Shown one piece after another: positions 36,610 to 60,633 of a stretch of DNA of 64,000 nt; position 1 is the first letter of the stretch; each line of letters opens with the position of its first letter. This stretch comes from Tubiluchus corallicola (taxonomy: Eukaryota > Priapulida > Priapulimorpha > Priapulimorphida > Tubiluchidae). The translations under genes were made by a program, and so were the position numbers. The DNA is taken from assembly GCA_030141605.1 (NCBI GenBank), contig JAQGDQ010000208.1, positions 1 to 64,000 on the forward strand, in the 5' to 3' direction. The notes under the pieces were generated by a model that was not told the DNA's origin, did not search any database, and was given only the letters and a program-made list of their open reading frames with translations.

Positions 36610-38240
36610 TTTTGGGGATTATAATAACTATCAATTATTGACAAATTGGAAACGACTTTAGGAAGACACCAATGTGGTAGAATATCTAATCGAAGTACTG
36701 CTGATCACCTATTCACTATTAGGGCAATTTTAAACTATAATAAATATTCAAACAATGATATTTACATGACATTTTTTGATATAGAAAAATGCTTCGATAA
36801 GCTTTGGTTTAAAGATGCTGTAGCTGAAATGTGGCATTTAGGGATGCCAGCACACATTTGTGAATTAATTTCCAATTTGAATGAGGTAGCATATGCTGTT
36901 ATTGGCACACCAGTTGGTATCACTAAGGAAATTAAAATAAAGGAATCTGTTAGGCAGGGAACTGTTTTAGCTCCGCTTTTGTGCTGTGTAACAGTAAATA
37001 AAATAAATTCTCTTGAAAAAAACAAAAACAATAATAACTCCTGAGCTTGAAATCTGTATATAGATGATATTTTAGAGATAGGAAATGAAAATACAATTAG
37101 AAGAATGATTAAAAATTGCAGGAAAACAGAAGAATTAAAAAGAATAAAGTTCAGTGTCAAAAAAACGCAGTCAATGCGAACAAAGATGACTAGAAAGAAA
37201 AGAATTCCCCCAATAAAAGAAAAAATTAGCAAAGGAGAAATTGGAGAAACACAAAGCTATAAATACCTTGGTGATTGGCTAAATGACGAAAACACCTATT
37301 AGACGTTAATTGAAAAGTGAAAAGAGCAGAACAAATTCAAACTTAGCTATATTAACTCCTTGACAAATATTAATAATGCAGGAATAATGTCAGAAGAAAT
37401 AAAACTAAAACTTTATCAATCACTTGCAATATCATCTTTAATTTATAATACCTTAACTTGGTCAAACATGAAAAGAAATGAGTATGAAGAATTGGAAAGT
37501 GTTCAAGGTAAGCCAATAAGAATTATGTTGAGAATAGATAAAACTACAAGTTACTGGGGGTTAATATCAAAATTGGGAATTTGGCCAATTGAAGAACGTA
37601 TTTGGTACAAAAAATTTATGTTTTATAGAACTCTTTTAATATTAGGAAGTGAAAGGTTAGCCAGCAAAGTTGTAGCACAGCAAATTAAATACAGGAATGA
37701 TGATAATTGGTATAATGAAATCGAAAAAATGGCAAACATTTATGGAATTAATATCGACAAGGAATACGTGAAAAGTCAAAAGAAATCATAGTGGAAAAAA
37801 TACATAAAATTTAAAATAACATCTGCGATACAAGACAAATGCAGTAAAAAATATAAATAAGAGCTCAAAATTAAGATTTTTGGAAAGCAATAAAGGGGAA
37901 CAGAAGGATTATTTTACAAAATTCAGTCACGCAGAAGTTAAAAATATTTTGAACTTAAGATTTAATATGGTCAGAGTGAAAGCAAACTTTAAGGGTTCAT
38001 TTATAAGAAAATTAATATGTCCCATGTGTGATAGTGAATTAGACACAACAGAACATTTATTTACTTGTAGCAAATGTAAAAGGATTAGAGAAAATCTACG
38101 TGAAGTCTCAACGGAAGAAGTTATAAGCTGTTGTAGTGAAAATTTGTTGAAAGCATCCAAATATGTCAATGATTGTTTGTTTTATAGGAAAAGCATTTTG
38201 AAGGAAGTTGGTGAAGTAAATTTTGAAGAAGAATGAAGGT
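36610..38240 (+). mobile_element. Non-LTR retrotransposon copy 2 (5'-truncated, frameshifted)
   Basis: The copy opens within the reverse-transcriptase domain. It has H-Q-C-G-R-I-S near 36665, F-F-D-I-E-K-C-F-D-K near 36772, an R-Q-G-T-V-L-A-P block near 36950, an intact Y-I-D-D-I-L box near 37059, Y-K-Y-L-G-D-W near 37258 and S-Y-W-G-L-I with I-W-P-I-E-E near 37550-37590. A C-terminal C-P-M-C ... H-L-F-T-C-S-K-C finger lies at about 38018-38075. Internal stops at about 37042, 37300 and 37790 and a frame change near 37860 inactivate it. It is better preserved than copy 1 and lies downstream in the same orientation. Confidence 0.82.
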
Positions 38241-44794: not shown

Positions 44795-47700
44795 TTATGC
44801 CTTTGTGGCAACTGGACGTGGACCACGCAACCATCCAATTTTACGCAAATAGCCAACAATAAATGGTGTTGCAGATAGTGTGATACCTATGCGAAGAGGC
44901 ATAAAGCATTTGTAGACAGCATAGGAGATCACAAAAGTGCTGGCTCCGGTGACGGCTTTTGATTCCAAAACTGCTTGACCTACTCCCAGTTTTCCCAGCA
45001 ATCCTACCATGTCTATGCCGCTGGAAAAAAGTAGTTAGACAATTAATCTTTACATAGCAGTTACAATTTTACATTTAAATTTTAATTGTACTGAGACAAC
45101 CTCGTTTCAAAATAAAATATAGTAAGCTGCTAGGAGTAGTGATTTTTTTGTACAGAAATTAACATTACATTTAGTAGCTAACTACTGAATGTCAGAACAG
45201 AAGCAATATGTTCAAGATTAAAAAGATGTCCCTGAATGACCGTGACTGCTTTCTAGAGTTAACTCTGAAGGGAAATTACATTTTTTGACAGTTATGCAAT
45301 ATTTGGAATTTTTCCCAACGAGACTGCCTCTGGTTGATGGGAAATATCTTTATTTCCCTTCAGTATAAATTCCCATCAGGGCCGGAACTAGATGTGGCAA
45401 GCAGGGGGGGGCGGGGCGTAAAAATTTTCTGGGGGGGGGGCGAGGTATCCGAAGTGGTTAAATAATGGTTAAGCCAATTTTAACCCCTTTTATACTGCAT
45501 GCAGGCCTATAATTAGCATGTGTGTAGGACGGCGTAGCAGACAGCAATAATGAGAAAATTAACTCTCAGTTAACACTAACGTTATTAATGTGCCTCTAAC
45601 TAAATTGTTATTTACAGAACATTTATCACATACATGTTTTAAGAAAATAATACACTGAAGCTACCAAACATTTTTTTACCTAATTCTAATTCATATTGAA
45701 AATGATTACATGCGAACTGCAATTTTCACTGCAAAAAAAATTATTTGTCCGATTTTGCAAGGGCGGCGCAAATTTTGACAGGGGGGGGGGGCGCCCCCTC
45801 GCTCCCCCCTAGTTCCGCCCCTGATTCCCATGAACCGATGGTAAACATTCAAGATAGTGACATTGAGAGATTTACCTTTGAATATTCTCTCAAACTGTTA
45901 TAGTAGCGCTAGACTCTAATAAGGATTCACTGTTTTCCTAAAATCATTCGATTTATATGACATACATATTTGGTTCCATCTTGTACCTTAAAGCTGTGAC
46001 TAGCATAACACGAATGAATGAAGGAAACTGATGGCTGCCAAAGATGGGAAGGTTGCAAATCCACAAACAGGATATTTTTAAAAAGCCACTAGTCGCTCAA
46101 AACTCATGAAATGTTGGCAATTTGATCCTGCAGTTTCAAGATCTCGGAATGCCCCATGAATCAGATTGAGTTGAAATAAAGAGGAATGTCTGGTTAGCAG
46201 CTGACATTCATAATGATCAGAACTGCGCATTCTCTCATCACAGAATCTGCCACGGCTATTTCTAGTCTTAAAGTAAATAAGGCTTTTCAATGTCTGATGG
46301 ATATTTTGATTTCACCGATTTCACACGTTTAAAAATAGGTAAACCTAAAACTTTCAGGTCTGGTATTAGCTTTCTCATGTTTCTGTGGGTAAAGAAGCAA
46401 AATGAAACAGAGCTTTAGCAATTTAACATCAAAATTTGTTATGAATATTACGGTTTTACTAATTCTTGTATGATCAACGGTCTAATAAAATGTTATCAGC
46501 CTGTTTAAAAAAGTAGTAATACTGCGTGTATGTGATAAAAAGAGAAAAGTGGAGAGACCAGAGACAGTTGTGTTAATATTGAGATCAAAGACAAAGTTAT
46601 GCTACTATTTTTCAATACTCATTTCTCCACTGAAGGTCGCTGTTAGTGAAGAGTTACTAGGCAATGTTCATTTACGAAACCCAAATAATTTTTTTAGTCA
46701 TTAATTATTTGTTGGGCCAACATAATAACTGTATCAGCTTGGGAAAAGCTGGAAAGTATATATGCATCTCTTTGTGAAAAACTTTGAGAAAGAATAAAAG
46801 TATTAAAGTTCTAGGTTAATTTAAGCCATTCAAGATGAATGGCCCATCCTGCAGAAGGAGCTACTGGTTTCGGTCGTTTCACTAATGAGCCTACTCTAAA
46901 ATTTATAACGATTTTGTTTGACAAAAACAACATGAGACAAATTATAAGCAGTAGCAGCTCGTGTATAAGTACTGTGTTACGGCAGCACCCTGTTTTCACT
47001 CATTGTTACCGATAATATTCAATATAATAAGTCTTTTTTCTTTAGTTCTTTTTTTATACTTGTGCGGAACTGAAGTACAATTTGCTTCACAGCCCAAGCA
47101 ACGCGGTGTCTGGCTGTTGTGCGCATGCGGCCATGAGATAGCACGCTGCTCGGTAGCATCTGCTGCTAGGTAGAAAAGTACTGTCTCTATCACAGTAACA
47201 ATTGCACGTGCGCACCATGTACCGTCATATTCTTGGATGTGATAAAGTGTGAACTTAGCGTGTGTGCTTAAAACATAAATTATTTAATAATGGACGCCTT
47301 GCATCATCAAGAAATAATTTCTGTGACTGTAAGTGAACTACAACAGCTTAATTTTTCACATTTGTCTCTCCATGCGGAAGTTGCAGTTAAGAAAAGAGGC
47401 CGTTCTACACCTGATCTTCAAATATAACTACAACATTAATATTACATATGTTTGTTACATTTTACACAGTATTAAAACAATGGCTAAGAATTTTCTGAAG
47501 CATCACCCCCACTAATTTTAGCTGTGAGCCGCCACTGATTCTAAGCGATATTTCAATAACTTCAAGGATACACTCTAATGTATATCTCCGGGATTATGGG
47601 TGCAACGAATGTTAGTCATGATCACCAATCACCAACACATTTTTGAAAAATAAAACGAGATGTCAACCACTTGAGGAAGAAAGCAGTTCGACTAAAGAGA

Positions 47701-48676
47701 AGTGACGAGTTGTGCAAAGACCAGACATTTATGTGCTGCAAGAAAAACCCTACCTGGAAATGGCTAGGTAGGTGGCACCCAACATTGTTAGGGACATGGA
47801 AATGTGAAAAATGACCACAGTGGCACCATATTCTTTCACTGCAAGCTTCAACCTCTCCTTTTGTGACAATGGATGTACGTCAGACTTACCACGTTGATCC
47901 TCCTGCTCCTGTATTTTTTTGATTATCTTGTCCTGTTCGTCAAAGACATGGGACAGGGTGTGACGTCCAGTCTGGACTCCTTGCAGAAGTTCATCGCATT
48001 CAGCCAAGCCATACTTCTCACAGTTTTCCTTGAAGATGGCAAACCTCTTTTTGTCCTCTTCAGACCCTTGTATGCCTTGTGGAAATGAAAGTTCGTTGTC
48101 ACCAGCCAGTTTTTCACACTGATGAACAAAAGAAGTTGACAATCCTCTCTTCCATGCCTTTTTTTGTTTCAGATCAAGCCTTGAAGAGTTCACATATCTA
48201 TTTTCTAAAGGTGCCATTCCACCAGGCATGTTCTGATATGTAGGATTACCATAGTCATGGATCAAGTCATTGTCCCTTCCAGCTCGAAAAGGTTCTGGCA
48301 CATTACTTTGCATGACACTACTAAGGCTTACTGTGCCTTGACTGTTGTAGTTTCCTATGTCTTTATCACGAGAGCAGACATCAGTGCTAGGAACTCTGGA
48401 TTTATCTCCATGAATACCTGGTTCATCACCATGAACATAAGGTCCATTTCCATTCTTTCCCATTTCATTCATTTCCATCGCTTTAGATAGGACCTCAACT
48501 GCTCTGTGCTGTCCGAATTCATGGTCTCTGCCTTGGTAACTTTGCAGTATATCTGTTTCAACGTTTGTATGTTTTGTTTTAACATGTTGAATTAATGCTG
48601 GACAAAGTTTGTGCAGATCTTGAGGTCTACTCCTACTTGCCAACTGCATAAGCATCGTCGTTTTTGCGGAAATCAT
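44795..48676 (-). CDS. FAM210-like mitochondrial membrane protein (DUF1279)
   Basis: Two exons (47754-48676, then 44795-45020) join in phase 2 to 383 codons, 382 residues. The C-terminal 100 residues form a DUF1279 domain as in FAM210A/B: K-L-A-V-K-E-Y-G-A-T-V-V-I-F-H, a first membrane segment to about residue 307, G-I-D-M-V-G-L-L-G-K-L-G-V-G, then A-T-P-F-I-V-G-Y-L-R-K. FAM210 proteins sit in mitochondrial membranes and affect mitochondrial translation and metabolism. The N-terminal 30 residues are basic with few acids, consistent with import. About 240 residues of polar low-complexity sequence precede the domain, so the protein is longer than vertebrate FAM210A (about 270) or B (about 190). 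The sequence before the ATG reads ATTTTAGTT, which could be a splice acceptor, so an upstream exon cannot be excluded. Confidence 0.88.
45377..45823. mobile_element. hAT-type MITE with perfect 8-bp target duplication
   Basis: Ends are CAGGGCCGGAACTAG on the left and, reverse-complemented, CAGGGGCGGAACTAG on the right. The element is flanked by ATTCCCAT at 45369-45376 and again at 45824-45831, a perfect 8-base target duplication. Long G runs sit just inside the left end and long G and C runs near the right end. The 447-base body has no transposase frame. It lies in the single intron of the FAM210-like gene. Confidence 0.9.
47090..47430 (+). other. CpG-bearing block with a short ORF in the FAM210-like intron
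   Basis: A locally GC-richer block contains GCGCATGCGG (47121-47130), which resembles an NRF-1 palindrome, and CACGTGCGC. It is followed by an ATG at about 47290 that opens a frame of some 45 codons on the plus strand, opposite to the host gene. That frame includes a possible GTAAGT donor after 14 codons. A K-K-R-G-R-S-T segment near its end weakly recalls a SAP motif. This could be the start of a separate transcript or an element's 5' end; evidence is thin. Confidence 0.2.
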
Positions 48677-50267
48677 AACTAAAATTAATAATCCAGAATA
48701 TTATATGCGTTTCTTTTCAGAAAAAACTCTCACGCCACGAAACCAAGCCTTTTACATTACTTTGATAGGCCTATCAAAGTTCACTGATAACTTCAATGCG
48801 TCAGCTGAGAGCTCTGCGTGAATGTTTACTTTCTGCCTGGCTGAATTTACTGGGCTGTTACGTTCATATACACTATACGATATAACAGCTTCGGGTAGAC
48901 TTATTTTACATGTATATCGTTTACTGCAAAGGCAATACTTGTATTATTTCCTGCTTACATTATTTAAATTAAAACTATATAACGTAGTATAACACAAATA
49001 ACGCTGTTTTACCACACTCCCTTTTACGGCACACAGTACGCGAGTATAATAATCGATGCCGTATAGTGTCACTGAACCCTAGAGCGGCCTTGGTCATCGG
49101 TGTGCACGTGACTAAGCCGTGCACATCACATCACATACTTTCATTTGGTTTTGCTGCTTGTTACGAGATGGCGCCAGCACCAAGCTTCAGCGGTCCGATG
49201 AGTCTTACGGCAACAAGTGATTACAACAGTTTCCCAATGTCTTACACCTCTAAAATTAAATGCTTCAATTGCCGCCGCAATTTTAAAGCCTATCAGAGCT
49301 ATTACACTACCGTCGAGAGCACAAAAGCGATGTCAGGGCTTTAGGCTAGCCTGAGCTGTAGGCTTATGAACTGCATACTGGAAATGTAGAGTTAAGTATA
49401 CGTACTACAATTTTATAGATTATTGCAGACTCCAGAGTATCCAAAATTACCATTTAACTTTTCAAATATTGAAGTTCTGATCATTTCAATTTTTGTCATT
49501 GTAATACATTTATTCATTCAAAAGCCAAAAATAGCAAGTCAATATTTACAGGATAACAGCAAAATAATAATCTATTTTATTGAGTGACATACTGACTATT
49601 CCTTTAGTCTATAGATATGCATGACAGATATAGCTTTTCGATGGGTTGAAACGGCATTCGAATCGAATAGTGCGGGAGCTGAGGTCATGCCTATGATGCT
49701 GTCTAAATTCAGCTCGAAATGATTTGACAAGCATTTTAAAATAAAAGCGAGAAACGCTCGCTCAAAATTTGTTTATGGGAACTTCGGCTAAATAATATCA
49801 TAATACCAGCGTAGGTAATCTAAGTAGGACATACGAATGATCAAATATTTTGGAAACTTTTCTGTGAAATGTTAATTTTGAATGATGCTGTCATGCTTAA
49901 CTAAGGACGTAATTTTTAATCGTTTAAATTAGTTTTCGGATTTTGACAATTAAGAAGTGTCTGACTGCACTACTATAAACATGAAAACGCTCTCTTTACC
50001 AATTTCCATCAATGGCCCGGCATGTGCACGGCCGTGTTAGGAACTTAGGATGATAAAAGCACACGCGAGAATGAACCTGCGTCACGTATTTGCAGTATTT
50101 CTGGACATTTTTCGAATGATATCGGTACCTCTGCAGCGGAAGAAAAAAAATTGCGGAGGGATTTTCTTTTCAGTAAAATGGCGGTAGTGTTAAAGAATGC
50201 ACCAGCGAACGTCACCAGGTGTTTTGATTTGTCAGCCAGTTCCCCAACTGTTCTTCCAGGGCAGGCA
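48677..50267. other. Upstream region of the FAM210-like gene
   Basis: This should contain the promoter of the FAM210-like gene. A plus-strand frame starting with ATGGCGCC at about 49168 runs 58 codons and has a C-F-N-C pair, but I do not recognise it and found no splice partner. Further on, to about 50200, the sequence is A+T-rich and without motifs. Confidence 0.4.
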
Positions 50268-50800
50268 CTAGGTTGAGACCAGCATTATGAGAGTGAACAT
50301 TAGCGAAGTCAAGAAGACAAGAATGCTGAAGACAATGCTGGATCTCAACTTTAATTTTCTGTCTCGTTGTGAGCTCTTGAACTGACAGGCCACAAAACAA
50401 GAAACTTCAACAGCGGTATGAACGTACCTGCGGGTAATACCTTTCGTTTTCAACTTTGACCTCCTCTCTATAGTCTTTTTGACTTTTGATCTTCCGCGCA
50501 GTCTTTTGGGTATTTGCTGCAGGCGCAGATGCTGGTCTATTTCTGTGGCTTGCCGGTATATTCAAAAACTGAATTTGCAATTGAATGTTGGTAAAACTTT
50601 AGTTTAAGAAGCCAGATGGTCAACCAAAGGCCAAAGCACAAACTAACTCAAAAACTTTTCAATTATGTCTTTTACGTTCTTCGTAACGCAAATTACCAGT
50701 GAATCACACTGTCATTGATACTCTCGTCTAGAGAAGTTTTTACTTGTATTCGGTTTGCAGTTGCATTGTAAAGTTTCAGACCATCCGAATCAGGACGCAT
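50268..50800 (-). CDS. Predicted small tail-anchored protein, three short exons
   Basis: Three short minus-strand exons, 50744-50800, 50428-50568 and 50268-50381, join in phase 0 to 104 codons (103 residues) using GT-AG introns of 175 and 46 bases. The start ATG opens M-R-P-D-S-D-G-L-K-L-Y-N. The middle exon is polar, with N-R-P-A-S-A-P-A-A and a charged K-D-Y-R-E-E-V-K-V-E stretch. The last exon has a basic block, R-D-R-K-L-K-L-R, then about 22 hydrophobic residues and a stop, the layout of a tail-anchored membrane protein. I do not recognise the family. Support is the agreement of start, phases, splice signals and a terminal anchor; the 46-base intron is short. A different frame through the last exon is also open (ending L-V-P-A-L-E-E-Q-L) but needs a poorer acceptor. 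Confidence 0.45.
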
Positions 50801-50984
50801 GCGGATTATAAAAGACAAGTAAGGTTACTAAAACAATGCGCGCAAAACCTGTTGTGTTAAACAAATATTAGCTGCGTATGTCCTAGGGACGGCTTCTTTC
50901 GTATTTTTTTGACCGCGGTGATGCTCACACCTAAATGCACATTTATGGAGTAGTGCTCTAGAATCGGTCTAGATACTTCTTATT

Positions 50985-51130
50985 GGTCAATGCAGCCAAA
51001 CCAACCAGCAAACCAACCGGCCAATTAACCAACTAACCAGTAAATGAGTCAGCTAGTCACTTGGTTGGTCAGTCAATTAGTCGGTCAGTCAGTCAGTCAG
51101 CCGGCCAGCCTGCCAATCATTCAATCACTG
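50985..51130. repeat. Degenerate tetranucleotide repeat (CCAA/TCAG)
   Basis: CCAAC/CCAAA units at about 50993-51040 give way to TTGG and TCAG/TCAA units to about 51125. The two halves are partly complementary (CCAACCAAC versus TTGGTTGG), so the block could fold. It lies upstream of the receptor gene. Confidence 0.7.
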
Positions 51131-51620
51131 ATAAAACAATTTGTCAATTAATAGAAAAAAACAATCACTCAAGTGCAACAATCGACCAATTAACCGTGCA
51201 AGCCATATAAACATGTATAAATAGAATATAGAGCATAAACAGATCTAGCAATTCTCGGTCTGCCGAGCTATTTGCATGGAAGACTGAGAATGGAAACTAT
51301 CAGCTTTTAACCTGATTGATGGTTTTATTGAAACAGATGCTAGCATTATGCTTATATTTGCAGAGTGGCAACTATTTAGTCTGCAATCAGGCGGCTTCCT
51401 ATTATTGTGTGCAAAAACTGGATATTTATTTTCAGCAGAGTGTTTCAACACCGTTGCCATGGCGATTTGGCCTGCTTTTATCCCAGGTAAATAGTTTTCA
51501 GGCGTTAAAACACCTGAACAATAAGATAACGCACTACTCTTTATATGGGTCGCTGTTAAGAGTTACGGAGAAACCTACGAATGAGGAAAATCTGAAATCG
51601 CTAAATACAAACACTACACG

Positions 51621-54344
51621 ATGAAGAATTTGTATCGACCTGCAACGATGACTGTGACGACAGTATTTACTATTTTGTTGTTGGTTACATACAAGTATCA
51701 AGCGGCAGCGATGACTCTAATTCTCAGCAACAGCAATTCGTTTCCTGTGCAGGATTCATTTTTGAAAACACTGAGTGGTTTCCTCACTAATGATGTTGAT
51801 GAGCCAGTTAACATTACGACGCTGAATCTTGGAGCAAAGTTTCAAAGTGGCTTGTGTAGCGAGCTAAGCACCAGTCCTTCGGCAGTGGTTGACATCAGTC
51901 GCAATGCTGATCTTTACAAATTGGCTTCGTCTACGGCAAAAGAATTTGAAGTACCTTTGATATCATACCAACCAGAGGAGGACTGCAATCAGGAACCCCA
52001 AGTTGCTAAAAACTTACAAGTTGAAAAAACACAAGTGGGCGACCCAGCAGAAGTGAGAATGCTGTCACCTCCCGACATTTCCATGAATGCTATCTTGGAT
52101 ATTATTGATAAGGAAGATCTCAACAATGTCGCAATGTTCTTTGACTCTGGAATAGTGAATCCGGACACCGTGTACAATGAACTGGTTTTACGACTTCAAA
52201 TTCCGTACATTTGTCAAGAAATTGTCAAGAGTCATGATACTACAAAGGAGCAGATGATTGTGATAAAAGAAAATGCGCTAGAAAATGTTTTTGTTGTCAG
52301 TAAAATTACAGAAGCAGATCGTTTAGTACAAGCAGGACAAGAGCTTAGAATGCTGCTTGCTAATGGTTTCAAGTGGTATGTGATTACTTTTGATCAAGCA
52401 AGTCTTACTCCATCTATAGGTCTTGATTACAATTACAATACCATGGTAGTGCACATGAAACCCTTTGCAAAACAGAAGTTGCTTCAGATGCCTGTTACTA
52501 AAGAACTGGAGGCTCAAAAAATTTCAATTGCTCCACAACACTTCTGGTATACAGACCTTCTAACACACACTGCAAGAGTTGTACGCCAGCTCCAGAGGGA
52601 GAATAAGTTGACACAGAATGGAAGTCATGAATGTAAGATCGAACAAGCTAATTTGGTCGGGTCAGAGAAGCTACAAACGACTGATCTTGTGAGAGCATTT
52701 GAAGATGTCAGTAGCAGAGACTTGCCATATGGAATATTCCTGTGTTCACCTAATGCTACTTGTTATCAAGAAACCACCTATGAGGTATATAGAGTGGCAC
52801 TGATGTTGGGTAAACAAAAAAGTAGATACAAACCATTGGGTACTTGGTCTATTTCTTCAGGTTTACTGAAAACCTCTAACAATTCGTTACTTACTGTAAG
52901 TGGAAGACGGTTTTACAAAATTACAACTAACATTGATACGCAGCCTTTCATGATGCTGAATCCAAAAGCAAACAGCACAGGCAATGACGTGTACATGGGA
53001 TTCTGTAAAGATATGATTGATTTATTGGCTACTGAATTGAATTTTGATTACTACCTGTATACACCAGACGACGGTGAAGTGGGACGTCAGTACGATAATG
53101 GAACATGGACAGGAATGGTGCGAGAACTTATACTTCAAAATGCAGACATGGCAGTATCACCATTCTCTGTTGTGGCTGAAAGAGAGGCTGTCATTGACTA
53201 CACGGCCCCTTTTTTTGAGCAGGTTGGCATTTTGATATCAATGAAAGCTCTTCACTATGATAATTCACTGCTGAAGTTTGCTAATGTACTAGAAGGAAAA
53301 GTGTGGATTTGCATAGTGGCAGCTCTGTTTGGGACGTCCATAATACTTTGTGTGTTTGACACCATAAGTCCATACAGTTACCAAAACAATAAAGAAAAAT
53401 ATGCTAACGACAATGAAAAGAGAGTTTTTACATTAAAAGAGAGCCTATGGTTTTGCATGACATCACTTACGCCACAAGGTGGCGGAGAAGTACCGAAAAA
53501 CCTTTCAGGTAAGTTTGTGGCGGGAACATGGTGGATATTTGGTTTTGTCATTCTGGCATCTTACACAGCAAACTTGGCAGCCTTTCTCACTGTTCAGCGT
53601 TTTGATGCATCCGTGAAGTCACTGGATGACCTCGCCAAGCAACATGATGTAAGCTACTCTGCTCTTGAAGGGTCAAGCTCTAAACTCTACTTTGAACGCA
53701 TGAAGGACATTGAGTACAAATTTTATGAGATCTGGAAGGACATGAGCTTAAATATTAGCGTAGATCCAGCACAGAAAGCAAAGTTTGCAGTCTGGGAGTA
53801 TCCACTGAGTGAGAAATACACACGCATATGGAACAACATGGTAAAGACCGGATTCCAAAATACTGTTGAAGAAGGTTTTGCAAAGGTCCGAGCTAGTGAA
53901 CCAGGGAAGTTTGCCTTCATGGAGGATGCAACTATTGTCAACTACATGGCTGACACAGACTGCGATTTAGTTGCTGTGGGAGAGCAGTTTAGCAAGAAAC
54001 CGTATGCCATTGGTGTACCCAAGGGTTCTCCTTTGAAAGAAGAGTTATCAAATGCCATTCTCAAACTACAGAGTGAGCGAAAGCTTGAGGATCTGAAAAG
54101 AAAATGGTGGAAGGAAAAGGCCACTTATTGTCCTTCGAAGGACAACCAGAACAACGGAGTTACTTTTTGGAGCATCAGAGGAGTTTTTCTCATTGTTCCT
54201 ATTGGAATTGTTCTTTCTCTAATAGCATTGTTGATTGAGCACTGTTACTATCGAGAGAGACCAAAATCCAAGTCTACTGTTGTTCAGCCTATAAGCATCA
54301 ATGTGAAGGAACCAGCTCAGGATGTTAAAGAGATTCGCTACTAA
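51621..54344 (+). CDS. Ionotropic glutamate receptor, IR25a/Epsilon-like, intronless
   Basis: A single uninterrupted frame of 907 residues encodes a complete ligand-gated cation channel subunit. Residues 1-30 are a signal peptide. About 31-425 form the amino-terminal domain, 428-545 ligand-binding half S1, 560-582 M1, 609-625 the pore loop, 636-660 M3 and 661-840 S2; M4 is at 851-876, with a short cytoplasmic tail. M3 carries the diagnostic S-Y-T-A-N-L-A-A-F. Arg521 in V-A-E-R-E-A-V is the conserved alpha-carboxyl ligand contact, and the amino-group contact is Asp769 in F-M-E-D-A-T. The pore reads S-L-T-P-Q-G-G-G-E and S2 has F-Y-E-I-W-K-D-M-S-L-N, wording I recall from the IR25a co-receptor class rather than AMPA, kainate or NMDA receptors. 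A signal peptide soon after the first ATG supports this start. Absence of introns contrasts with the intron-split genes around it. Confidence 0.92.
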   Translation: MKNLYRPATMTVTTVFTILLLVTYKYQAAAMTLILSNSNSFPVQDSFLKTLSGFLTNDVDEPVNITTLNLGAKFQSGLCSELSTSPSAVVDISRNADLYKLASSTAKEFEVPLISYQPEEDCNQEPQVAKNLQVEKTQVGDPAEVRMLSPPDISMNAILDIIDKEDLNNVAMFFDSGIVNPDTVYNELVLRLQIPYICQEIVKSHDTTKEQMIVIKENALENVFVVSKITEADRLVQAGQELRMLLANGFKWYVITFDQASLTPSIGLDYNYNTMVVHMKPFAKQKLLQMPVTKELEAQKISIAPQHFWYTDLLTHTARVVRQLQRENKLTQNGSHECKIEQANLVGSEKLQTTDLVRAFEDVSSRDLPYGIFLCSPNATCYQETTYEVYRVALMLGKQKSRYKPLGTWSISSGLLKTSNNSLLTVSGRRFYKITTNIDTQPFMMLNPKANSTGNDVYMGFCKDMIDLLATELNFDYYLYTPDDGEVGRQYDNGTWTGMVRELILQNADMAVSPFSVVAEREAVIDYTAPFFEQVGILISMKALHYDNSLLKFANVLEGKVWICIVAALFGTSIILCVFDTISPYSYQNNKEKYANDNEKRVFTLKESLWFCMTSLTPQGGGEVPKNLSGKFVAGTWWIFGFVILASYTANLAAFLTVQRFDASVKSLDDLAKQHDVSYSALEGSSSKLYFERMKDIEYKFYEIWKDMSLNISVDPAQKAKFAVWEYPLSEKYTRIWNNMVKTGFQNTVEEGFAKVRASEPGKFAFMEDATIVNYMADTDCDLVAVGEQFSKKPYAIGVPKGSPLKEELSNAILKLQSERKLEDLKRKWWKEKATYCPSKDNQNNGVTFWSIRGVFLIVPIGIVLSLIALLIEHCYYRERPKSKSTVVQPISINVKEPAQDVKEIRY

Positions 54345-54355
54345 ATTTTCAACAG

Positions 54356-55340
54356 ATAAAAATGGCACAGGAAGAAATGGGACAAATGGAAAAGTAGGTA
54401 AAATCGCACAGGTAAAAATGGCACGGGAAAAAATGGCATGGTAAAATGGCACAGGAAAAAATGGCACAAATGCAAGAGTATGTGAAAATGGCACACCTAG
54501 TAAAATACGTGTTTAGGGTGAGGGTCATAATGGGGGATAATTATTTTAGTAATTTTTACCTCTGCCAAGGAAGTTATGCTTCAACACAGTCTGTTTATTT
54601 GTTTGGTTGCTTTTTGTCTGTTAAATCAGTAAGCCTATATGCAAAAACTATCTAACAGATTTCCACGAAACTTTGTGAAGAAAGGCGGGTATAGGATGCC
54701 AAAATGGAGTTCTTGCAAAACTTGACCGAAAAAACATTCGTGAAGCACTTCGAGGAGGTTTCAGAGCGAGTGTTTAGTCCTTCATTTTTGTTATCTGCGC
54801 CTGGACAAGCATCAACGATATGTTTCCGTTCCATCTCGAAAACTTCTCGCTCGTAAAATTGTGTAACGCTGTCTGTAAGTTTTGCTTATTAAAATTTATA
54901 GCCTTATAAGATGTCTTGGTGCGTATACATTTGTTAGCTTACTACCGTCACCAAAATTAATGATTGAAAAGGTAGATAAACACAATGTGGAACATTCGTG
55001 CATTTTTGGTTATAAATTTATTTAATGAACAAATATTTTGTGAGTCTTTTGTTAGTCTATATAATACTTATAGCGGTATATGTTTGTATGTTTGCTTGTT
55101 CATCTTTAGTTTTATGTTTTTTCTATCAAAAGAATCAGACAAACGCACCTAGAATTTTCGACCTTGGCGAAAATTCGCTTTCTACTCATCTCACTCTAAT
55201 TTTATTACAAAAATTATTTGCATCAACTAACATATGTGTGAGTTTTTCCCATTTTTCGTTTTGTGCCATTTTTCTTGTGACATTTTCACCTGTGCCATTT
55301 TTCCTGTGCCATTTTACGTCTGCCATTTTTACCTACATTC
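54356..55340. mobile_element. Foldback-like element with inverted arrays of GGCACAGG words
   Basis: At 54356-54502 the word AAAAATGGCACAGG and variants recur about eight times. At 55247-55335 its reverse complement (CCTGTGCCATTTTT) recurs about six times, so the two arrays are inverted relative to each other around an 800-base middle. This is the layout of foldback elements or MITEs with repeat-rich ends. The middle includes CTCTGCCAAGGAAGTTATGC and GTTTGTTTGGTTG-like words that I recall from a repeat widespread in marine invertebrates. The array starts 12 bases after the receptor stop codon. Confidence 0.6.
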
Positions 55341-58209
55341 ATGTTCTTAAATGTAAATAAGTAAATAAATGATGCAAGCAAACAGTACAGGACATAGCTG
55401 GCACGGAGGCTATAACACTTATTATTTATGATTATAATGGAAGCTGAACTCTGTTTGCATGAACAGTGCACTTAACAGTAGCAAGAGTGGTTAGGACGTG
55501 GTAGAGTAATGAGGTGTAATCATTTTTTTTCGATTTTGTTGTTTCAATGTACATATATGACCGTTTTTTGTCTGTTGTGCCAGATCGTTCAGATACTTCT
55601 AAAACCTGCCTTGATTAAAATTACACTCACAGTCAAAGTTTAATGCAGTCTTTTAGCATTAATTATGTCACTTGTCTATTGTTTAAAACGACTATCATCA
55701 AATGTATATTTTGAAATAAACTTCTACACTCATTTAATGTCTGTGTGATTTTTTTATAAAGGTCGACAGTCTAAAAGCTGATATTCAACTGTCGCCAGAA
55801 CCTAACTAATTGTGAAGGGTGATCGTCTGAAGTAAGAGGCTAAACAAGCGCATATGTGTGGCCACTTTTAGAGGGTGTACGTCATCCATTAAAACAATTG
55901 GGGGCTGTATAGCAGCTGAAACCACCCCATACAGTTTTTGCCCTGCCGTCCCGTTTATGTTAGGTAGTAAAAATGAAGTACTTGATTTTGATTTGAGCTT
56001 AGCGGTCAGACTTGGCTGGGCATTGTTTACCATTCGTTATTAAACCCACACAGTGAACATTCGGCTATTGTGTGGCAGACCTCACAGTTGGTTTCTGGTA
56101 CGCACAAAAGTTGAGCCTTTTCAGAACAAAGATCTTGGGAAATGAGAATACTACTAAGAAGATGGATGAACAAAACGCAAGTGTAAAAGCAGTATCACTT
56201 ACCAAATTTTTGTTGCACTGAATCTCGAGTTTGATTCAGGCAAGCTGGTACACAATTCCGTATTTTTCCTTTCATTGTTAATACTGCCACGTCACATCTT
56301 TAGACTGGCATTTTCACAATTGCCGTTCGCCTTCTGGCAACCGTAAGGTCGTGAGCATACAAGCTCGCTCGGTGAGAACGTTTATACTTAACTGTATTAA
56401 CTTTTTTTTAATTTGCTGATAAACATACCTTCAGTAATGGTTTATTTTGTAAGTTGCATCTTCCCTAACACTTTCATGCCACGCTTTATAAAGGACCATA
56501 TTCAATTGTTTATTATACAACTCGTTGAAGCAATGACCGACTTTACCTAAACGCTTAGCCTAATGTAGAACAACTTAATTTTTGTTTCCGACTTTTCACC
56601 GGAATTAATTGTTTGTGTAGGTAAATAACATAGATTTTTTGACTGTTTGAGCCAAAATGTAAACATAAAATTGTTATAATCGTTTTAAAAACAAGGGGAT
56701 AGTAATTGTAATAATATCAGTATTAATAGTAGTAATTACTATATTAATAGCCCTTATTAATAGTACTAATTAATAGTATTACTATCACTATATTACTATA
56801 CAGGGAGTAAACCGTTTTTCAAACGGCTGAAAATAATGCTGCAAATGTAAAAAATTTAAAGAATAAGAGGAAAACTTCCGCAGTTGAGCTGTGATTAAAT
56901 GCAATCTGCCGTCAGTGCATATTATTCACAAATGAACAACACAGAGAAAATGCTTGTGAGTACATTAGCGCTTGCCTGTTCTATTCTATTACATTTCTCT
57001 CATGTCGTCACTGATCTCAGTATTGCAAACACTTAAAATAATTCAAATGCCACAACCACAAAGTTGTTAATTGCGTCCGACGTTGCCTTGCCAAACTGCC
57101 CGAGATTACCTGCCAGTACCCAGCACCACTTTTCTGCAATTCCTGATTCCTTAATAATATAGCTTATCAGCTATCAGGAATTATTCCAACAAAATTGTAA
57201 AAATACAGATAGAAATCTTAAAAAGCCATTTTTGTCCGACATTAGCCTATTTTACCCTATACCAAAAAACTTCTGACAATTGTTATATTAGTTTGCATTA
57301 CACTTACCTGCTTGAATAACTTGAATGCTTGAATTATATTTTATAGGTACATCCGTTTTTCAAGCAGGTTAGCGTAACGCAAACTAATATAACTTTGTGC
57401 GAAAAGTTTTTTTTTATAAAAAAAACATATCTTGTTCTTTCTGGATTAAAACGTTTGTTGCTTATTTTTTGTGTTACACAGTTGCGAGTCCCGGGAGAAA
57501 ACGTCTAGAAATAAATTAAAAACGCTTTATACGGGCTGCGTTAAGGCGTTATCTTGGTGTGAAATGCAGTACTCGGAGCGAGTTATGCTCGTTGGAAATT
57601 GACCTACCTTCTAAAATCTAAATGCACGACAGCAATAAACATTTTTAGCAAGGTATTCTGTTTAGAAGTTAAGTTTTCGCCTCTTACGATAAGCCAGAAA
57701 TCTTGGATGTCGGTTTGCTAATATTGAAGTGGCGTCTCTGCGTCAAAACCCAGTGCTATCTGGCATGTCACAAAGAAGAAATAACCAAAGCAATGATGCT
57801 AACAGCAGTAAAGTTGCAGGTTACAAGTGTACGAATCCTGGAATTGATTCCTAGTGCAGTGTATTATAGAAGATACAGAAAGGAGTGAAATACTGAATTC
57901 AGTGGTCTAGAATGAGTGATTGTGACTTTCTGCTCACAATTAGGAATTAGCCTATAGGTATTCAGCAATAGCGCCCAGAGAAAACAGCTAGAATATGTCA
58001 ATGTGGTACAAACCCGCCCGCTGTACAAACTGAATTGTGCGAAGGTTCTGTATCACATATTCCTGGCAGATACTGACCTTTTCAGAACTATATACTATTT
58101 TCAGTCATTTACATTTACGTGAAAGTATTGAAGCTGTGTACATAATTATGCACATTTATGACGCTGATGTGTTATAAAGTGACATAATATTATGGACATT
58201 TCGTTACGT
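55341..58209. other. Intergenic region between receptor and SLC34 genes
   Basis: No exon is recognised. AATAAA signals at 55364-55369 and near 55712 could serve the upstream receptor if its transcript runs through the foldback-like element. A TAATAGTA-rich block lies at about 56700-56810, and an inverted repeat at 57283-57392 is listed separately. A 61-codon frame at 55858-56043 has no recognisable motif. Confidence 0.5.
57283..57392. repeat. Inverted repeat (34-base arms, 42-base loop)
   Basis: Arms 57283-57316 and 57359-57392 are reverse complements with about three mismatches; they start TTATATTAGTTTGC and end CTGCTTGAA. They would form a stable hairpin as RNA or single-stranded DNA. No flanking target-site duplication is evident, so this may be a solo hairpin MITE or a structural element. 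Confidence 0.75.
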
Positions 58210-58497
58210 CAGTGGTTCCCAAAGTAGGGGTAAATCACCCCCCGGGGGTAATATGTTTTTTTTGGGGAGGGGGGGGGGGGTAACGGGCACCCCTCTGAAA
58301 ATTTTTAAAACTTCGCTCGGAATGCATTTTACGTAGTTTTCTTCTTGAAGAGACTGCCTCCGGCAGGCAACACTGTGTCATGGGGTCCATCATTCGTACA
58401 ACTTTTTGAGTTGGAGAAGTAGCACTAGGTGGGGGGTAATGGACACGACCGAGTTTCCCGATTTGGGTAACGGTCCGAGAAAGTTTGGGAACCACTG
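58210..58497. mobile_element. hAT-type MITE (CAGTGGTTCCCAAA ends)
   Basis: The left end reads CAGTGGTTCCCAAA and the right end is its perfect inverted repeat, TTTGGGAACCACTG. The flanks CGTTACGT (58202-58209) and CGTTAAGT (58498-58505) form an 8-base target duplication with one mismatch. These ends are the well-known hAT form. The 288-base body has long G runs and no transposase, so the minus-strand open frame across it is not a gene. Confidence 0.9.
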
Positions 58498-59707
58498 CGT
58501 TAAGTATATATGGACCTAATATTACGATATACTTGTAAATTTAAATATTTAGTTAGATTTGCTTGTGAACCTCGAGGTAATCGATGTTTACTAAATTTAT
58601 ATAATTATATATATATTCCACGAATACATGGACCAGCTCTAATCTCATAATCTGAATTAATTCAAGCATTTATAATAATCTAGAAGAATCATATTTAATT
58701 TGCATAAAAATGGACTACTTACATGTAGTTATATTTACAAAAACGATAATATGTATTTATTGTAACTATGTGCACTATACAGCTTGCATAACAGGTCTAT
58801 TAAAGTTAGACATTTTTATGACTACGTCAGTTTTTGACAGGATTATATGACCTCTAAGCAACAATAAATAAAAGGAGCTTATTTACATAAAAAGAAATGA
58901 TAAACTTGTCAAACAATTATGAAAATAAAACAGATAAAAATAATAATGTAAAAATTATACGCAATTACGCAATAACCTATTAGTAAGATTATTGGCCATT
59001 TGTTAACCAAACACATAGTTTAATATTAAATTGATAAATTTAATAATTATTAATTGCCTCAACATGAAATGTGAAATGATCGGAATTGAGCTAAACTTAA
59101 AGCAGGGTCAAGTTCAGCTATTAGACAATTAGATCACACAGTGACAGTTCTGATTCAACCCAATAGCTCACCAGGGTTATCCCATATAGCTAATTGTAAA
59201 GACTACTTATCAAGTCAATATACGTAAAGTCTACTTATCAGGTCAATATACAACAATAACAATAATATATAAGCACAATGATATATAATTAGTGATTACA
59301 TATCACAAAACAGTAAAACAAACATATCCGTCTAATAAGCAAAATTTACGCTTCTTTATCACGTAGAAGCATGCAAAATTAAATGCCCCTGCGCTTAAAA
59401 CAAGTGTTTTCCGCAAAGTGATTCGTGAGTACGGGGGAGTATAAGTGGGACGGATTGCCCAACGCTTATGAGCATGCGTCACGATCACAAACAAAATACT
59501 GCATCATATATTTGTAAAACAGCAAAGCAATTTACATTATTAGAGTCGTATAATTTGTATAATTTGTACCTTACAAATTAATTTTGGAAGGTACCAGTTT
59601 AACCGACGACGTATTGGTGAATAACGTTGCTATATGATGGGACTGGGGTAGCAATGAATATGTTTTCAGTAGTAAAAATAATGTTTAACTAAAAATCGTG
59701 ATATATG
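58498..59707. other. Region downstream of SLC34
   Basis: A+T-rich sequence without a recognisable gene. It must include the SLC34 3' untranslated region at its right end. A tandem pair of 28-base units lies at 59196-59251. Confidence 0.5.
59196..59251. repeat. Two tandem 28-base units
   Basis: The unit starts GTAAAG, contains CTACTTATCA and ends GTCAATATAC; the two copies differ at two positions. It is a recent local duplication. Confidence 0.85.
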
Positions 59708-60633
59708 TTAACTTGCCAGTGGGTCTTTATTTTGTTCCAGTTGTTCTAATGGAACTGTGTTTTTCTCACAATCTTTGGGATTGGTATTTTTATACAAAGG
59801 TCTACAACAGATACAGTATTTAAACAAGAGATCGGCAGCTTTTAAGGAACGCATCCACCACGGTATGAAATTCCACGACCTCAGAACTTCTGGTAGCCAT
59901 TTTGGCTTCTTCTTTTGCAGAACATTGATGACAGTCAATAATAAAACAAAAAAGGCAACTGGTACACCTACTCCAATCAGAACCCAGGTTCCAGCCAGCG
60001 AAAGGCCAAAAACAGTAGCGGGCAAACCAAAGAAGACTACCACAATATATACTATGGCAAACCACCTGTACTTGGCTGTCTTGTTCCCAAGTCCCTGAGC
60101 CAAACGCATGGGGACATCTCGCATGAACGGAATCGGATACCACAAAAGAAGTCCACTGATGTTAAAGAACAAATGACAAAGCGCCACTTGAAGAGCTGCA
60201 CTTAAAGTCTCTTGGCTTGCAGCTAAACTTGCTAACATAGCTGTTGCTGTTGTTCCGATGTTAGACCCTAAGCAAAGAGGATACATGCGCTCCAGAGACA
60301 ACACACCTACGCCCACCAAAGGAGTTAGAGTCGACGTAAAGATGGAGCTGCTTTGGACGAGAAACGTCACACCAGCGCCTACCAAGATGGCAACGTAGCC
60401 TGTAAGGTGTCGTAGAGGTCCCGGAAAGTCAGCGTTGACGAATCTCTTGACGGCAGAAGCCATGCTGCTCTTGAAGATGGAATTAAGTATCTTGACGACA
60501 ACAATGAGGCAAAAGACTAAGGAAAGAATGGAAACTACAAGGAGAACAACACCAACAATCTCGTCAGACCAGTCTACTAAAGAGAAAAGTGTTTTACCTG
60601 AAAAACAAAAGAACTAAATTTTAATAAAATGAA

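Follow-up and report, generated by a model that had tools for sequence, protein, structure and literature searches.

Organization of the receptor gene

The analysed window, a stretch of 64,000 nt taken at its full length, carries on its plus strand a 907-codon ATG-to-stop frame (positions 51621–54344, stop codon included) that encodes an ionotropic-receptor channel protein of 907 aa, here annotated from the frame, Pfam searches and trees as a single-exon ionotropic receptor (IR) gene of the IR25a class. The frame is enclosed in a stop-free run of 919 codons; with independent bases at the composition of the window, the probability of meeting no stop in 919 given codons is ~8e-31. The coding frame is a single exon, and further non-coding exons may lie upstream.

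Searches against Pfam identified Lig_chan (2.4e-39) and Lig_chan-Glu_bd (4.7e-30) in the protein. The hydrophobic N-terminus was judged by eye to be a putative signal peptide (approximately residues 1–30; 51621–51710) and is followed by the amino-terminal domain (ATD) region (approximately residues 31–424; 51711–52892). The length of the N-terminal region, ~390 residues, fits an ATD like that of ionotropic glutamate receptors (iGluRs), although the Pfam ANF_receptor profile has no match in the N-terminal 420 residues, nor was it found in the second intronless copy on contig C1809 described below. The S1 ligand-binding lobe, delimited by Lig_chan-Glu_bd (residues 432–542; 52914–53246), contains Arg521. 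The channel and S2 lobe, delimited by Lig_chan (residues 560–863; 53298–54209), includes the pore loop SLTPQGGGE (53463–53489), the SYTANLAAF motif (53559–53585), a co-receptor extra loop (CREL; approximately residues 694–730, limits set by eye; 53700–53810) with one N-glycosylation sequon, N711-I-S, and Asp769 (53925–53927). In the alignment, Arg521 matches the Arg of the AMPA- and kainate-type rows, and Asp769 stands where those rows have Glu; we take both positions to be ligand contacts. A preliminary description of this DNA had called the frame complete and had pointed to Arg521, Asp769, the SLTPQGGGE pore loop and the S2 motif FYEIWKDM, all of which were recovered in the translation and alignment. 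Judging from the retained Arg521 and Asp769, the protein may have kept the ability to bind an amino acid in its ligand pocket. An AF2 model of the protein (10 rows) had a mean pLDDT of 42.4, too poor for use.

Absence of introns and its probable origin

The same genome (343.5 Mb in 2344 contigs) encodes an intron-bearing IR25a on contig C623, so called because it is 61.9% identical over 370 residues to a provisional fly IR25a sequence. Within the region shared with the window gene, five introns were placed in C623 by homology and GT/AG ends, with phases 0, 1, 1, 2 and 1, and the alignment of the window protein runs unbroken across all five sites. The corresponding stretch, in which every site is empty, spans 53139–53924 (codons at nt 53139, 53337, 53478, 53727 and 53922). 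The earlier proposal that the single exon reflects retroposition or intron loss is thus supported by C623, the intron-bearing paralogue for which a genome search had been suggested, although the evidence does not separate the two routes.

The intron in the pore loop occupies an identical site, in phase 1, in C623, in the co-receptor-like gene on C2151 and in the kainate-type gene C1776c. The frames of the kainate-type genes C1776a, C1776b and C19 continue uninterrupted across this site, and the AMPA-type gene C543 has an intron a few residues beyond it, which argues against a simply ancestral intron. Nevertheless, because C623 and C2151 retain the intron, its loss in the lineage of the window gene remains the simplest reading.

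Retroposition is the likely origin of the intronless gene. A spliced IR25a transcript would have been copied back into the genome, with loss of the introns, and a later duplication of the intronless copy would have taken in no less than 350 bp of the DNA upstream. No convincing poly-A tract or target-site repeat flanks the gene between 50000 and 57000; at the dS of ~1 that separates the window gene from its C1809 copy, such traces may have decayed, so their survival is not required. A distinctly less probable course is that the introns were lost singly, or through cDNA-mediated conversion at the gene's own locus, without retroposition elsewhere. IR25a orthologues are extremely variable in the positions and numbers of their introns (PMC2924276), and the conserved upstream block shared with C1809 shows that promoter-proximal DNA has persisted at least from the time when the two copies duplicated, both of which are in keeping with loss in place. 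Against it, five of the five mapped sites are cleanly empty while C623 has introns there, and the many receptor frames and the GluN1 gene of the same genome, all apparently single-exon, suggest repeated mRNA-mediated loss.

Retroposition, which we favor here, has precedents in other receptor repertoires. Divergent single-exon IRs of Drosophila, likewise intronless, were already described in 2010 and retroposition was proposed for them, according to passages of PMC2924276; the Drosophila genes are divergent, whereas the window gene encodes a full-length protein of the co-receptor class with low dN/dS. Similarly, parts of a 2019 study report intronless nicotinic receptor genes beside intron-rich relatives in molluscs, with expansion by retroposition and tandem duplication (PMC6896357), an arrangement resembling the present one in a different receptor family.

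Assignment to the IR25a class

The iGluR and IR set of the genome comprises the AMPA-type gene C543, the kainate-type genes on C1776 and C19, an NMDA1 gene on C2110, divergent IRs and several co-receptor-like genes. The AMPA/kainate sampling of our trees includes one AMPA row from the PDB, and the kainate-type rows are in-genome genes; the label "kainate-type" rests on their sister position to the AMPA rows in the second tree, the trees carrying no kainate reference. The fly IR25a and IR8a sequences are provisional, the PDB search having named no IR to check them against.

In the first tree (21 rows, including both provisional fly sequences), the window gene, C1809, fly IR25a, fly IR8a and C2151 grouped with support of 98/95. 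In the second (18 rows, now including C623 and C1408 and lacking five of the divergent rows), the window gene, C1809, C623 and provisional fly IR25a formed a clade at 96/96, and the co-receptor clade was recovered at 99/99, with the AMPA-, kainate- and NMDA1-type and divergent rows falling outside. When the two provisional fly rows were omitted, the window gene, C1809 and C623 grouped at 100/99. A clade of the window gene, C1809 and C2151 has an AU p of 0.0565 in the first tree, i.e., is not rejected at 0.05, and the second tree separates them. Since the branching among the window pair, C623 and provisional fly IR25a received only 59/19 (AU p 0.437) in the second tree, we name the gene an IR25a-class paralogue rather than a daughter of C623. 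Membership of the AMPA, kainate or NMDA1 class is ruled out by all three trees.

Sequence comparisons agree with the trees. Over 844 residues, provisional fly IR25a and the window protein share 36.8% identity (E 4e-172), and over 371 residues the window protein is 54.7% identical to C623 vs. 36.2% to a kainate-type row and 37.1% to GluA1. As described in sections of PMC6472016, CREL is conserved in IR8a and IR25a and missing from tuning IRs and iGluRs; the window protein has it, with its sequon, and neither GluA1 nor the kainate-type row does. Because loops resembling CREL are seen in C2151 and C1408 as well, this feature characterizes the co-receptor group, and it is the trees that narrow the assignment to IR25a. 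The S1 arginine, kept in the four of four IR25a proteins compared in an excerpt of PMC4890853, where the S2 contacts vary, is R521 in the window protein. Thus, the window gene shares with IR25a the clade, CREL with a sequon, an N-terminus of ATD length, the S1 Arg, the QGGGE pore and SYTANLAAF, and differs from it in lacking coding introns and in existing twice, as diverged intronless copies, in a genome that also has an intron-bearing IR25a. With IR8a it shares CREL and the overall layout, but the provisional partial sequence of fly IR8a sits outside the IR25a clade that holds the window gene. The IR25a co-receptor assignment of the preliminary description is therefore supported, and the comparison it proposed with AMPA/kainate and NMDA rows places the gene with IR25a, apart from them.

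That the gene belongs instead to Epsilon or another iGluR class is very improbable. Its best PDB matches are AMPA and kainate receptors, with no IR named among the best 60 of 371, and the rows of the trees include no Epsilon or Lambda; yet CREL, the IR25a clade (96/96, or 100/99) and the higher identity to C623 than to the kainate-type row and GluA1 all speak against such a class. For provisional fly IR25a, too, no IR was named among the best 60 of 373 PDB matches, so the PDB cannot decide the class; a PDB search for Epsilon named none among the best 60 of 365.

A second intronless copy and a conserved upstream block

The intronless copy on contig C1809 is 77.7% identical to the window protein over 902 aa, with a dS of 1.04 and an overall dN/dS of 0.113. 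By region, dN/dS is 0.049 for residues 426–880 and 0.154 for residues 30–425. To judge from these coding-sequence comparisons, the two genes look like maintained proteins rather than alleles. Comparison of window positions 45001–60000 with C1809:279500–289400 yielded one match at E <= 1e-3, from 51268 to 54340. It is very improbable that the gene is a nonfunctional retrocopy, or that it duplicates C1809 as an allele or through the assembly; the absence of introns alone would speak for such readings, and against them stand the complete frame, the dN/dS of 0.113 at a divergence far beyond that of alleles, and the upstream DNA shared by the two genes.

The shared upstream block (51268–51517, plus strand) agrees between the two copies in 172 of 251 alignment columns (69%), which would exceed the expectation for neutral DNA at a dS of ~1. 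It contains an RFX X-box-like palindrome, GTTGCCATGGCGAT, at –168 (51453–51466), whose minus strand fits RYYNYY-AT-RRNRAC, a consensus given in a portion of PMC2375033. The C1809 copy has a counterpart at –180, and matches to the consensus occur within 800 bp upstream in two of the two copies vs. none of the 12 other single-exon receptor genes examined; since the two upstream regions are homologous, the site counts as one event rather than two. Across the window, the consensus has six matches vs. 2.59 expected by chance, and in the Drosophila RFX screen, as recounted in the same portion of PMC2375033, the loosest consensus was equally frequent in control genes and a conservation filter was used. 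A match at position 602237 of C623, ~1.3 kb before the first recognizable amino-terminal frame, proves nothing. RFX control in ciliated neurons is thus a hypothesis for which the X-box-like site is only suggestive. Among the literature matches listed for RFX together with IR25a, there was no mention of "IR25a".

Proposed function

Taken together, we consider it probable, from sequence comparison, that the window gene is a co-receptor paralogue of the IR25a class that still functions, whose introns were lost most likely by retroposition and which was then duplicated along with 350 bp or more of upstream sequence. The X-box-like site would drive the gene in ciliated cells; in ciliated sensory neurons, the protein would assemble with tuning IRs into heterotetramers, and the sugar on CREL might aid export from the endoplasmic reticulum, by analogy with fly IR8a, for which this has been shown. 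More speculatively, and with considerable doubt on our part, the retrocopied and duplicated IR25a genes, each behind the same kind of promoter, might constitute a second, dedicated co-receptor set for a large expansion of single-exon tuning IRs, while the intron-bearing IR25a diversified through two alternative ligand-pocket exons, amounting to a lineage-specific, rebuilt co-receptor layer.

The window gene represents a known gene, the smell and taste co-receptor IR25a, duplicated in an unusual form. In the open-licence literature, judged mostly from listings, we found no intronless, duplicated and selected IR25a next to an intron-bearing one. No retroposed IR25a appeared among the literature matches listed on IR25a duplicates and retrogenes, as represented by titles and the beginnings of abstracts, and a literal text search of the open-licence literature for the IR25a pore peptides found none. 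One of these matches, a butterfly paper (PMC10210156), does contain the wordings "IR25a paralog" and "IR25a duplicat". The coexistence of an intron-bearing IR25a with two selected intronless copies and about a hundred single-exon receptor frames would indicate that mRNA-mediated copying can multiply the co-receptor besides the tuning receptors, and the window, C1809 and C623 genes offer a clean test case for the division of labor among co-receptor copies.

Taxonomic position of the animal

The preliminary description had raised the possibility of a non-protostome origin. A search of the assembly for COX1 gave no match, while 8 of 14 control genomes did match. The mollusc haemocyanin domain matched neither this genome nor any of the others searched and so carries no information, and GTDB and IMG/VR contigs yielded no confirmed relatives. 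With a Ubx-type homeodomain plus UbdA peptide as the query, the best genome match covered 69 of 69 residues at 86%; from the last part of the homeodomain onward, its sequence is MKMKKENQALKEMKEQ. A UbdA-type peptide after a Hox homeodomain is a mark of protostomes. A non-protostome origin is therefore not borne out; its UbdA-type Hox peptide, together with its IR complement, makes a protostome the most likely source, and at a guess the animal is a lophotrochozoan. The 2010 survey found IR25a, the IR nearest to iGluRs, in every protostome that it covered (PMC2924276), so the presence of the gene is ordinary and provides no evidence for IRs outside protostomes.

Other receptor genes and the genomic neighborhood

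The search of the genome with Lig_chan returned at least 150 matches, of which at least 116 lie in open frames of 400–600 aa on 46 contigs (23 on C1556, others on, e.g., C1241, C344 and C654). Many of these frames share contigs, forming a large, apparently single-exon expansion. The 10 that were translated are mostly divergent-IR-like; one more, on C1008, reads NMDA-like, and others may not be IRs. Four divergent frames scanned with Pfam have Lig_chan and lack ANF_receptor. At C1556:161199–162038, the Lig_chan match lies inside a 2138-aa open frame, far longer than its neighbors. GluN1 is apparently encoded by a single exon as well (C2110:677763–680537; 924 aa) and includes a CaM-binding C0 segment. 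In the second tree, the intron-bearing co-receptor-like IRs on C2151 and C1408 form their own clade beside IR25a/IR8a (96/94).

In the IR25a gene on C623, the S2 exon encoding the ligand-contact Asp exists in two versions (C623:614906–615038 and C623:617086–617218), each of 133 nt and with identical splice phases (1 in, 2 out). The pair is likely mutually exclusive, in which case the choice of exon would change part of the ligand pocket. Near C623:600071–600208, the minus strand carries a third version that looks degenerate.

Among 10 frames of the window scanned with Pfam, matches were obtained to UNC45-central (two frames, below the cut-off), zf-CHCC, FMN_red, FAM210A/B (below the cut-off) and Na_Pi_cotrans (301 aa). 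The short, separate neighboring frames fit split genes, for which the preliminary description had given 2 to 21 exons, the scan itself giving no exon numbers. A remnant of a LINE-type reverse transcriptase spans 36628–38236, with RVT_1 in 36628–37041. Immediately downstream of the receptor gene, beginning ~10 bp past its stop codon, inverted tandem arrays of a 14–15-nt unit (AAAATGGCAC...) flank ~800 bp at 54354–55334, an arrangement in the 3' flank that resembles a foldback element.
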